A stretch of 64,000 bases of DNA. Origin: an uncultured Allomuricauda sp. Its GTDB lineage: Bacteria > Bacteroidota > Bacteroidia > Flavobacteriales > Flavobacteriaceae. A program made the position numbers and the translations under genes. Where the stretch lies: assembly GCF_947499695.1 (NCBI RefSeq), contig NZ_CANMPQ010000002.1, forward strand, positions 682,001 to 746,000, given 5' to 3'. Below the pieces are notes generated by a model that worked only from the letters and a program-made list of their open reading frames with translations, was not told the DNA's origin and ran no database searches. Numbering within the stretch: position 1 is the stretch's first letter; each line of letters begins with the position of its first letter. Shown here piece after piece: positions 16,055 through 19,225 of the stretch.

Positions 16055-16663
16055 ATGGCTTTTGAATTACCAAAATTGCCCTATGCATATGATGCTTTGG
16101 AGCCACATATAGATGCTAGAACTATGGAAATACACCATACGAAGCATCATAACGGATATACCACTAAACTTAATGGAGCAATTGCAGGAACCGAATTAGA
16201 AGGAAAAGGGATTATGGACATTCTTTCTGGTTTGGATATGTCTAATGGCGCCGTTCGAAATAATGGAGGAGGATTTTATAATCACTGCCTGTTTTGGGAA
16301 GTGATGTCTCCAAATGGCGGTGGAGCCCCTAGCGGGGATTTGGCCGCAGCGATAGATGACGCTTTTGGCTCGTTTGATGCATTCAAGGAACAATTTAGCG
16401 CCGCTGCCGGAACAAGATTTGGATCAGGATGGGCTTGGTTGTGTGTTCACAAAGGTGGAAAGCTAGAGATTTGCTCCACTCCAAATCAAGACAATCCAAT
16501 TATGCCGGGAATAGGGTGCAATGGTCATCCAATTTTAGGGTTGGATGTATGGGAACATGCCTACTATTTGAACTATCAAAACAGAAGGCCTGACTATGTT
16601 TCTGCTTTCTTCAATGTGATAAATTGGGATAAGGTTTCACAAAACTATGAGTCCAATAAGTAG
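16055..16663 (+). CDS. Superoxide dismutase, Fe/Mn family (Mn-like active site)
   Basis: A 202-residue cytoplasmic enzyme converting superoxide to oxygen and hydrogen peroxide. The four metal ligands are His in [12 protein letters not shown] (about residue 27), His in YNHCLFW (about 75), and Asp and His in [10 protein letters not shown]. Gly in GGFYNH and Gln in STPNQDNP are at the positions that usually mark the manganese type; metal specificity cannot be fixed from sequence alone. No signal peptide is present. It is monocistronic, with a strong terminator 20 bases after the stop. Confidence 0.95.
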
Positions 16664-16683
16664 ATAAGTTAAATCAAACATCA

Positions 16684-16719
16684 AAAAGGCCGGGTACCTC
16701 ATGGAGCCCGGCCTTTTTG
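16684..16719 (+). terminator. Intrinsic terminator of the superoxide dismutase gene
   Basis: GGCCGGG (from 16688) and CCCGGCC pair perfectly around about 12 bases, flanked by A and T runs. It may also stop minus-strand transcripts leaving the sRNA-like units. Confidence 0.88.
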
Positions 16720-16732
16720 TTTTATAAAATCT

Positions 16733-16812
16733 ATATAATAGAAAAGGGCGGGGAAGCCCCCACCCTTTTCGTCCCAAATCTTACCATAAACTTAACCTAC
16801 TTATGCTATGGC
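16733..16812 (-). ncRNA. Predicted small RNA unit 1 of 3
   Basis: On the minus strand a conserved 39-base 5' part (16812-16773, beginning CCATAGCATAAGTAGG) leads into a GC-rich terminator hairpin (16770-16741, loop GGCTT) and a T-rich tail. Upstream is a promoter match, TTTG (16847-16844), 19 bases, TAATTTAG (16824-16817), which puts the start at about 16812. The 5' CCATA can pair with TATGG further on to close a loop of about 20 bases. Units 2 and 3 repeat the 5' part with one substitution, while the hairpin arms differ but stay complementary. An alternative reading is a leader for a small peptide starting MVRFG. Confidence 0.7.
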
Positions 16813-16816
16813 AAAA

Positions 16817-16847
16817 CTAAATTACTGGTATTGTGAGAAATAACAAA
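16817..16847 (-). promoter_or_regulatory. Promoter of small RNA unit 1
   Basis: TTTG (16847-16844), exactly 19 bases, then TAATTTAG (16824-16817) on the minus strand, ending 4 bases before the conserved RNA segment. Confidence 0.65.
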
Positions 16848-16927
16848 AGTTTTTGAGGAAATTTTTGCTTTTAAGAGCAAATGTAAAGTGGATATTGATA
16901 GTGGAAATTTGATAAATGGTTGGGAGT

Positions 16928-17004
16928 CAAACATAAAGAAGGCGGAGTTGCCTCCGCCTTCTTTCCCCAAATCTTACCATGAACTTAACCTACTTATGCT
17001 ATGG
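16928..17004 (-). ncRNA. Predicted small RNA unit 2 of 3
   Basis: Same plan as unit 1. The conserved 5' part spans 17004-16965. The terminator hairpin pairs AAAGAAGGCGGAG with CTCCGCCTTCTTT, 13 perfect pairs around four bases (16935-16964). Upstream on the minus strand TTTC (17041-17038), 20 bases, then TACATTTG (17017-17010), a perfect -7 element. The sequence between this unit and the neighbouring ones is not conserved, so the repeat is the transcription unit itself rather than a longer duplication. Confidence 0.7.
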
Positions 17005-17009
17005 TCCTC

Positions 17010-17041
17010 CAAATGTACGCCAAGGCCTAGGTTATTTGAAA
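17010..17041 (-). promoter_or_regulatory. Promoter of small RNA unit 2
   Basis: TTTC, 20 bases, TACATTTG on the minus strand. The -7 box matches the consensus exactly; the -33 box has one mismatch. Confidence 0.6.
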
Positions 17042-17144
17042 AGCTTTTAGACGAAACCCCTTTTATTTGGTTGAATTGCCAACCTTGACGGAGGGGAGTA
17101 CTATTATTAAAGAAAAGGATTACGAGGAGACGAAGTGGGATTAC

Positions 17145-17224
17145 TTTAAAATAAAAAAGGTGGAATAGCTTCCACCTTTTTTGCCCCAAATCTTACCATG
17201 AACTTAACCTACTTATGCTATGGC
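17145..17224 (-). ncRNA. Predicted small RNA unit 3 of 3
   Basis: The conserved 5' part spans 17224-17184 and is identical to unit 2 over the core. The terminator hairpin pairs AAAAAAGGTGGAA with TTCCACCTTTTTT around four bases (17153-17182), then a T/A-rich tail. The -7 box TACTTTAG (17236-17229) lies just upstream; the best -33 TTTG (17262-17259) is 22 bases away, longer than ideal. It is the unit nearest the end of purF (about 100 bases), so it could also end purF read-through. Confidence 0.65.
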
Positions 17225-17228
17225 AATA

Positions 17229-17262
17229 CTAAAGTAGGTGCGACATTTGCCTATTGTACAAA
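17229..17262 (-). promoter_or_regulatory. Probable promoter of small RNA unit 3
   Basis: TTTG (17262-17259), 22 bases, TACTTTAG (17236-17229) on the minus strand. The long spacer makes it weaker than the other two. Confidence 0.45.
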
Positions 17263-17326: not shown

Positions 17327-19225
17327 TTAATAGGCCCTTTGATTTTTACCTTCATAAAAGTTAATGAAAGCTCTATTGACGACCCGGTTACCTCCTGGTG
17401 TTGGATAGTTGCCAGTAAAATACCAGTCACCAAGGTTTTTAGGACAAGCTTCATGCAAACTTTCAATGCTTTGATAAATGATATCAACTTCTGCCTTAAT
17501 GTCTTCGGGACTCAAAATCTGAGCGATTTTCTTGGATATCTGATCAGCAGTAAAGGGCTTATAAAATTCCTTTACGTAGTTGACCACTTCTGCATCATCA
17601 GTTTCGGTTTGCGTAAGGCATTTTTCGTATATCTCCTTTATAATATGCGTAGTTCCATGTTCTTCGTGCAAGGCTTGGGCAGCTTTAAAAGCTACAAAAT
17701 CCTCCAGTTTAGCCATATCTATTCCATAGCAATCTGGATACCTAATCTGTGGAGCGGAAGAAACTACTATGATTTTCTTAGGAGAGAGTCGGTCAAGAAT
17801 TTTAAGAATACTCTTTTTTAAGGTAGTTCCTCTTACAATACTGTCGTCTATAATGACCAAGTTGTCATTTTCTTCGACCGATCCATATGAAATGTCATAG
17901 ACATGGGTTACAAGATCATCTCTGCTGCTGTCTTGGGTAATGAACGTTCTAAGCTTAGCATCTTTAATGGCTACTTTTTCAATACGTGGACGTACATCTA
18001 AAATCCTATGAAGTTCTTCACCAGTAATATTTGGACCAAGCGCCAAAATTTGTTCCTCCTTAAGTTTGTTCAGATAATTCTGTGCCTCCTTTACCATTCC
18101 AAAGAAAGAAGTCTCAGCGGTATTCGGGATATACGAGAAGACCGTATTACTCAAATTTCCATCAATGGATTTCAAAATTTGTGGAAATACAAGTTTGCCC
18201 AGTAACTTTCTTTCTTGATAAATCTCTTTGTCACTTCCTCTTGAAAAATAGATGCGCTCAAAAGAACAGGCCTTGCGTTCCACAGGTTCTTTGATTTGCT
18301 CTAAGAGGGTACCTCCATTTTTCTTTATGATCAAAGCGTGCCCTGGGTCTAATTCCTGGACATCTTCATAGTGCACATTGAATACGGTTTGAATGGCAGG
18401 GCGCTCAGAAGCCACCACAACTATTTCATCATCTTTATAGTAGTAGGCTGGACGTATACCTGCCGGGTCTCTTACAACGAAAGCGTCGCCATGCCCCAAT
18501 AAACCAGCCATAGTATAACCACCATCCCAATTTTTGGAGGATTTTCTCAGAATTTTCGCCACATTCAATCGTTCCGCAATCAATGGTGAAGCTTCTCTTT
18601 TATTATAACCTTCTTTTTTGATCTGTTTATAGAGTTTGGCAACGGCGTCATCCAGAAAATGACCAATTTTTTCCATTACGGTCACGGTATCCGCCAATTC
18701 TTTAGGGTGCTGGCCTAGGTTCACCAAATTATCAAAAAGCTCGTGGACATTGGTTAGATTAAAGTTCCCAGCAACGATAAGATTACGGTGCATCCAATTG
18801 TTCTGACGTAAAAATGGATGAACACTCTCAATACTATTTTTCCCAAACGTACCATACCTTACATGGCCCATAAGCAGTTCCCCTATATACGGGATATGCT
18901 TTTTTTGCAGAGCAACATCATTTTCATATTCAGGATTCTCCATGAACGCCATGTTGATACGATCATTGATTTGGGCAAAAATATCCTGAATGGGCTGTTG
19001 CTTGGCTGACCGCACCCTGCTCATGTACCGCTCCCCGGCATTCATATCGATTTTGATGCTTGCAAAACCAGCACCATCCTGACCTCGGTTGTGCTGCTTT
19101 TCCATCATCAGGTACATTTTATTTACGCCATAAAAAGCTGTACCGTATTTTTCCTTGTAGTATTCAAGAGGTTTAAGCAAACGGATCAGTGATATTCCGC
19201 ATTCGTGCTTAATCGCATCACTCAT
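17327..19225 (-). CDS. purF: Amidophosphoribosyltransferase
   Basis: A 632-residue enzyme for the first committed step of purine synthesis, moving the glutamine amide onto PRPP to give 5-phosphoribosylamine. The N-terminal glutaminase has its nucleophile Cys9 in HECGIS, so a short leader must be removed, unlike MCGI-type proteins. Later motifs are NRGQDGAG (about 46-53), GHVRYGT (about 119-125) and, in the PRTase domain, LVIIDDSIVRGTTLK (about 456-470). It is longer than E. coli PurF (505), as is usual in Bacteroidota. It lies downstream of a PfkB gene and a partial terminator, with purN further up the strand. Confidence 0.95.
   Translation of the reverse strand: MSDAIKHECGISLIRLLKPLEYYKEKYGTAFYGVNKMYLMMEKQHNRGQDGAGFASIKIDMNAGERYMSRVRSAKQQPIQDIFAQINDRINMAFMENPEYENDVALQKKHIPYIGELLMGHVRYGTFGKNSIESVHPFLRQNNWMHRNLIVAGNFNLTNVHELFDNLVNLGQHPKELADTVTVMEKIGHFLDDAVAKLYKQIKKEGYNKREASPLIAERLNVAKILRKSSKNWDGGYTMAGLLGHGDAFVVRDPAGIRPAYYYKDDEIVVVASERPAIQTVFNVHYEDVQELDPGHALIIKKNGGTLLEQIKEPVERKACSFERIYFSRGSDKEIYQERKLLGKLVFPQILKSIDGNLSNTVFSYIPNTAETSFFGMVKEAQNYLNKLKEEQILALGPNITGEELHRILDVRPRIEKVAIKDAKLRTFITQDSSRDDLVTHVYDISYGSVEENDNLVIIDDSIVRGTTLKKSILKILDRLSPKKIIVVSSAPQIRYPDCYGIDMAKLEDFVAFKAAQALHEEHGTTHIIKEIYEKCLTQTETDDAEVVNYVKEFYKPFTADQISKKIAQILSPEDIKAEVDIIYQSIESLHEACPKNLGDWYFTGNYPTPGGNRVVNRAFINFYEGKNQRAY

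Follow-up and report, generated by a model that had tools for sequence, protein, structure and literature searches.

A conserved tandem array of predicted small RNAs beside purF in Flavobacteriaceae, with candidate pairing sites at sprF and at a SprB-repeat adhesin

The closest described analogue of the locus presented here is FopS, for which pairing at the SusC start region is reported to block translation (PMC11697453). Closer to the bacteria studied here, PMC9723704 describes Rfp18, an sRNA conserved in Flavobacterium for which protease and adhesin targets are predicted, and PMC5395568 reports sRNA candidates of F. columnare without Rfam matches. In the open-access PMC literature, we found no sRNA regulator of gliding motility or of SprB/SprF adhesin export.

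Here, we analysed a stretch of 64,000 nucleotides (hereafter, the window) from an uncultured Allomuricauda sp., in which three repeated units lie between sodA and purF. We consider it likely that these units belong to a tandem, independently transcribed family of trans-acting base-pairing sRNAs that would regulate surface proteins of gliding and type IX secretion. Such a nearly invariant sRNA, present in most sampled Flavobacteriaceae genomes and without a gathering-score match in Rfam, would tie gliding motility and SprB/SprF adhesin export to control by an sRNA, and its predicted targets are precise enough for point-mutation tests.

Three tandem units between purF and sodA

Each unit opens with a TAnnTTWG box, after which come four bases, a purine, a 39-base core, a short linker and a terminator hairpin. 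The features of the locus are the following:

17327..19225, minus strand: purF, constant upstream neighbour (gene call and named-locus comparison)
17229..17236, minus strand: promoter -7 box of unit 3, TACTTTAG (box match and register test)
17147..17224, minus strand: predicted sRNA unit 3 (type A, closest to purF); predicted start 17224, core 17223-17185, terminator hairpin 17182-17153
17010..17017, minus strand: promoter -7 box of unit 2, TACATTTG (box match and register test)
16930..17005, minus strand: predicted sRNA unit 2 (type B, middle); predicted start 17005, core 17004-16966, terminator hairpin 16964-16935
16817..16846, minus strand: promoter of unit 1, with box TAATTTAG (16817-16824) and upstream stretch TTGTTATTTCTCACAATACCAG (type-C upstream conservation)
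16735..16812, minus strand: predicted sRNA unit 1 (type C, last); predicted start 16812, core 16811-16773, terminator hairpin 16770-16741
16792..16799 (unit 1), 16985-16992 (unit 2) and 17204-17211 (unit 3), minus strand: loop seed UAGGUUAA, complementary to TTAACCTA before sprF
16773..16781 (unit 1), 16966-16974 (unit 2) and 17185-17193 (unit 3), minus strand: linker seed AGAUUUGGG (complement counts and upstream sites)
16055..16663, plus strand: sodA, constant convergent neighbour (gene call and named-locus comparison)

The core, CCATAGCATAAGTAGGTTAAGTT[C/T]ATGGTAAGATTTGGG, is found in three minus-strand copies within positions 16773-17223, with starts at 16811, 17004 and 17223, and its sole variable base among the three copies is position 24, which is a T in unit 1. 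A direct-repeat search of the window returned a single three-copy family (83-nt reference, other copies 69% and 84% identical, start-to-start spacings of 193 and 219) and no further direct repeat beyond the units. These results agree with the initial annotation, which had described a 39-base segment occurring three times on the minus strand with one variable base, separated by unrelated sequences. The GC-rich hairpin that lies 3' of each core was also found as first described, with arms that vary among the three units while pairing is retained, and the promoter match claimed ahead of each copy corresponds to a TAnnTTWG box placed in equal register in 3/3 units. The transcript 5' ends initially proposed (16812, 17004 and 17224) lie at most one base away from those predicted from the boxes (16812, 17005 and 17224). 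Each of the three RNAs is predicted to fold into two stem-loops, a 5' hairpin and the terminator, with folding z values of -4.10, -4.84 and -3.62.

Between the array and sodA, positions 16682-16719 of the window hold a perfect 13-bp inverted repeat (CAAAAAGGCCGGG...CCCGGCCTTTTTG), which is probably a two-way terminator.

A family conserved at one locus, with predicted promoters and terminators of its own

Within the genus, a BLAST search with unit 2 matched 59 of 60 genomes, almost every one of which had 3-4 matches. The initial annotation had proposed to search for the core in Flavobacteriaceae genomes and to build a covariance model, and a model built from the three window units (R1) indeed uncovered a family: of 249 Flavobacteriaceae genomes, it matched 218 at E<=1e-3, of which 212 were retained at E<=1e-6, with 1-7 matches each and 30 of the weaker-scoring ones searched a second time, once the six genomes with best E values of 4e-5 to 9e-4 were left out. 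Four of these six genomes were inspected (L081-L084) and a seed match was seen in L082 only, without the loop; among R1 matches that score under about 33 bits there are reverse-strand terminators. A wider model (R2, built from 87 sequences of 38 loci) matched 13 of 396 genomes in a sample of the class, every one in the same family, and 33 of 196 genomes in a sample of the order, 32 of them in the same family and one outside. The out-of-family hit (G711, 40.9 bits) is a terminator without a core and was rejected as a member. No convincing R2 match in another family was found in these 396 class and 196 order genomes, in searches whose strict filters, with 12-24 candidates scored per genome, could miss weak distant members.

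A pattern scan of named genomes returned at least 118 stretches, 80 of which were treated as loci, with Maribacter, Zobellia, Cellulophaga, Flagellimonas/Allomuricauda, Aquimarina, Winogradskyella, Flavobacterium and others represented among the matches listed; among these, the array of the window most resembles records of Allomuricauda and Flagellimonas, and by this likeness the window's genus is probably the same. Since the core is kept across genera, the three-copy pattern is more than chance. Among the matches listed, the units of one locus share a strand in 80/80 named loci. Where purF is in view (68/68 loci), they lie on its strand, downstream, with the first unit at most 400 nt away; where sodA is in view (64/64), it is on the strand opposite to the units; and where both are in view (56/56), all units lie between them, only four of the 80 loci having neither gene in view. 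A mobile element, one of the findings that the initial annotation had named as overturning its reading, was rejected given this constant purF locus and a search that found no phage or plasmid match.

At gathering score, Rfam 15 gave one tRNA match in the whole window and nothing at the array, so that Flavo-1, also a flavobacterial RNA motif and initially suggested as a possible family, finds no gathering-score match in the window. With relaxed thresholds, STnc40 tops the list at 32.9 bits versus a gathering score of 45; since the reverse strand also matches, at 24-25 bits, this score comes mostly from the terminator.

Of 159 distinct sequences upstream of the core, 124 match the promoter box at 5/6 bases or more in a single register, versus at most 22 for any other of the 30 offsets tried, and about 99% have a purine as the base just ahead of the core. 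The box stands at -12 to -5 relative to the predicted start, which is where the main sigma consensus is placed in PMC9723704; the promoter assignment in the window is that of this -7 box. An alignment of 87 units, 72 of them distinct, fitted to the covariance model (A4), has 99.0% of its cells paired and two-sided changes in 14/23 pairs, and 0/500 shuffles reached either value. The terminator stem shows two-sided changes in 12/13 pairs. The 5' stem is nearly invariant and the two helices of its hairpin pair in >99% of A4 cells, in an alignment fitted to the model, with thin covariation (two-sided changes in 2/10 pairs).

The units sort by their linker into recurring types A, B and C and, judged by eye among the matches listed, type A adjoins purF, type B is in the middle and type C comes last. 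The type-A linker GGGGC is present in other genera and type C carries the T at position 24. Upstream of the units, AATACCAGTA (with at most one mismatch) was found for 27/28 type-C units versus 1/133 others, when units were typed by linker among the matches listed for the 80 named loci. Since this type-C promoter stretch is conserved, the array copies probably respond to different promoters.

As judged by comparison of promoter register, purine start and terminator covariation, the units are thus predicted RNAs with their own promoter and terminator, a general feature of multicopy base-pairing sRNAs, in support of the initial view of separate transcripts of about 75-80 nt with a conserved 5' part. 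The repeats could otherwise be DNA-level elements, such as protein sites or terminators/attenuators after purF, and their location directly downstream of purF on the same strand would suit such elements. We nevertheless find this very improbable, considering that the fixed promoter register with its purine start, the terminator found in each unit with its compensatory changes and the conserved promoter stretch specific to type C all speak against it.

A peptide reading of the core (ATGGTAAGATTT) was also considered and rejected: core length differs by one base between lineages (GTAAGATTT/GTAGATTT), which breaks the frame. Elsewhere in the window's own genome (C2:363583, minus strand; L001:1480-1530), a sense partial copy, CCATGTTATAAGTAGGTTAAGTTTATAG, with no obvious terminator, lies after a terminator and about 350 nt upstream of a gene that, judged by eye, is TPR-like; it is possibly a degenerate or leader-borne relative of the units.

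Complementary sites at sprF and at a second SprB-repeat adhesin

In the gap between sprB and sprF, 7-19 nt ahead of the sprF ATG, stands TTAACC(TA), to which the loop seed UAGGUUAA is complementary. Among 249 genomes of the family, 184 had an SprF match at 1e-40, and the upstream regions of 110 of these sprF genes were read (30 returned loci and 80 picked from the list). A set of 45 among the most similar SprF was taken as one group, reduced to 44 when L464 was dropped for its misassigned start, and the remaining 65 as the other. TTAACC was found within 40 nt before the sprF start in 39/44 regions, leaving five without it, versus 6/65 in the other group, and TTAACCTA in 33/44 versus 0/65, a split that follows the SprF ranking and was drawn after the sites were seen; most of those 65 genomes nonetheless keep the sRNA. 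The reverse control GGTTAA was found in 0/44 sprF upstreams. These 44 regions comprise 43 distinct 30-nt upstreams, and no 6-mer is commoner in their last 28 nt than TTAACC and TAACCT (39/44 each). An exact complement to the core of at least 10 nt was found at 30/44 sprF starts versus 8/880 dinucleotide shuffles and 1/337 ORF starts of the own genome, and these exact complements centre on the sRNA loop, with runs often reaching 10-12 nt. At the level of genomes, an SprF match is present in 171/212 sRNA-positive versus 13/37 sRNA-negative genomes, a comparison confounded by small genomes and kinship.

In 3/65 regions of the second group (sprF gaps L504, L510 and L525), a complement to the linker, CCCCAAAT, replaces TTAACCTA.

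In the own genome, the loop complement CTTAACCTA has 20 sites, three of which are the antisense of the sRNAs and one that of the partial copy, and two sites stand directly before start codons, one at sprF, which adjoins the giant SprB-repeat gene, and the other at the gene for a second SprB-repeat protein. The reversed pattern has 136 sites versus 20 and, as a control, says little. In 3/3 genomes examined, from three genera, ACTTAACCT immediately followed by ATG opens such a second SprB-repeat adhesin, and the three adhesins look orthologous judging by their first residues. Seven long SprB ORF starts were read in these genomes; three carry the site, one per genome, and the other four have no long match, including the sprF-adjoining sprB in all three genomes. 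In the three adhesins, a CCCCAAATC-like stretch located 35-40 nt upstream matches the linker, over 9/9 bases in two of them and with one mismatch in the third. The duplex energies of the adhesins (-31.7 to -33.4 kcal/mol) are reached by 0/337 background starts and that of the own sprF (-30.1 kcal/mol) by 1/337, with means of -25.2 for the 44 sprF, -13.2 for the 65 others and -16.3 for the background, energies that leave out the RNAs' own folding and a background of ORF starts that includes spurious ORFs.

Among the PorP_SprF genes of three genomes, a core complement of at least 10 nt was found in 4/30. In the own genome, 11 of 12 such genes were read, and in 3/11 a complement of 10 nt was found at most 40 nt from the start: L396 (sprF), L387 (CCAAATCTTA, C4:227112) and L404 (AACCTACTTA, C1:1179807), and the own second SprF-like copy, L399, has no site; the counts are 1/9 in G088 and 0/10 in G208. 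The L404 gene also has CCCAAATCT further upstream, so that the two elements follow one another as they do at the second SprB-repeat adhesin.

This linker-seed complement, CCCAAATCT, has 70 sites in the own genome, three of them antisense of the sRNAs, versus 13 for the reversed-pattern control, which here too says little. With a crude gene caller, 5/67 sites fell in the start zone, one of them, L309, at a doubtful start (p=0.005 versus composition-matched 9-mers, 90/5474; p=0.022 versus the genome share in the zone). As a general target signal, CCCAAATCT is weak. In the own genome, it stands 15-18 nt before three starts (L291, L315 and L300), those of a PD40 protein, of a 7TMR-DISM histidine kinase and of a protein with no Pfam match. 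Within the background set, TTAACCTACGTAATG lies at the very start of a 370-aa protein (MRILEIILVCFAFQ...) of the own genome (L351:395-460, C2:600001-620000), another candidate target.

Could the sprF site have nothing to do with the sRNA? If TTAACCTA were an sRNA-independent translation or mRNA element that matches the loop by coincidence, one might expect what is seen in two respects: the site is confined to one group of sprF genes while the loop is family-wide, and TTAACC is present in one of the seven other-group regions that come from genomes without an sRNA match. Still, CTTAACCTA is no general start signal, because it has 20 sites in the own genome, three of which are sRNA antisense, and it recurs at the start codon of the second adhesin in three genera, with matches often 10-12 nt long; we therefore see this coincidence as rather unlikely. 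It is similarly doubtful that the RNAs mainly bind or titrate a protein, such as an RbpB-like RRM protein, so that the 39-nt core would be a protein site and the sprF complement secondary. The core does stay nearly unchanged even in genomes whose sprF has no site, and FopS binds RbpB (PMC11697453), but a protein site would not predict that the reverse complement of the loop is kept at the start regions of two related kinds of genes.

In the base-pairing mechanism that we favour instead, each RNA would be about 76-78 nt long, starting from the purine before CCAU, and its 5' hairpin would display the loop region GUAGGUUAAG, followed by the single-stranded linker AGAUUUGGG(G) and the intrinsic terminator. 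In the genera around that of the window, the loop would pair with TTAACC(TA) just upstream of the sprF start codon and also at the start codon of the second SprB-repeat adhesin, where the linker could pair further upstream. By analogy with FopS, loop-first pairing would cover the start region and lower the translation of SprF and of the adhesin, and the presence of multiple copies under different promoters would determine dose and signal. Sequence comparison shows the family, its constant locus, the promoter register, the covarying terminators and the kept complementary sites, from which we infer expression of the RNAs, pairing in the cell, repression rather than activation and an inducing signal. 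A conserved complementary site in a trans target, which is expected of multicopy base-pairing sRNAs, is found among genera of one group; other targets presumably exist for the RNA wherever sprF has no such site.

Relationship to FopS and other multicopy small RNAs

As described in PMC11697453, FopS (RF04319) resembles the array RNAs as a set of multicopy sRNAs of about 70 nt, with a Bacteroidota promoter of the TAnnTTTG type and a terminator, and with a seed that pairs at the start regions of outer-membrane protein mRNAs; the stretch UUCAUGGUAnnAGAUUU is common to both. In B. theta, FopS is present in 14 copies; its 5' part is single-stranded and its targets are SusC, whereas the array family lies in tandem at purF, is predicted to form a 5' hairpin and has sites at sprF and at a SprB-repeat adhesin. 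FopS also holds AAGGUUAAU, in an order that differs from that of the array RNA. When compared with FopS as a family, the array RNAs share its multicopy habit, promoter and terminator, and fall short of its gathering score and of its single-stranded 5' seed.

The purF-array sRNAs might accordingly be a flavobacterial branch of FopS, sharing common descent with the Bacteroides sRNAs. A stretch UUCAUGGUA(UU)AGAUUU is common to both RNAs, with an alignment score reached by 32/20000 mononucleotide shuffles, and size, multicopy habit and promoter type are alike. However, unit 3 scores 21.0 bits versus a FopS gathering score of 56, RF04319 matches 8/247 class genomes and, among the nine listed from the same family, to which the own genome belongs, none, and R2 has no convincing match beyond Flavobacteriaceae; moreover, the stretch shared with FopS is a start-codon complement, so that convergence is possible. 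Homology with FopS is thus suggestive, and a FopS branch in the strict sense seems unlikely to us.

Rfp18 of Flavobacterium psychrophilum (PMC9723704) is likewise a conserved sRNA of a Flavobacteriaceae member with predicted secreted-protease and adhesin targets, so that the Flavobacterium member of the array family might be Rfp18 itself and part of the family already known. In the text of PMC9723704, Rfp18 is nevertheless described as pairing via its third stem-loop, out of at least three, while the array RNA is predicted to have two, and it is called conserved in the genus rather than in the family. Set apart in this way, by description alone, the two RNAs are quite improbably the same. LhrC, Qrr and OmrA/B, which are named in PMC11697453, also exist as several related copies with overlapping targets, but they belong to other phyla and have other targets, and the likeness is again one of description alone.

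Comparing the array with FopS offers a view on the origin of start-codon-directed sRNAs in a phylum whose start signals are unlike the usual models. With somewhat less than even confidence, we propose that the tandem sRNA array, family-wide and nearly invariant, may be a post-transcriptional regulator of the gliding adhesin and type IX secretion system in Flavobacteriaceae that, together with FopS, would reveal a phylum-wide habit, perhaps going back to one ancestral family, of multicopy sRNAs gating outer-membrane proteins at their start codons.
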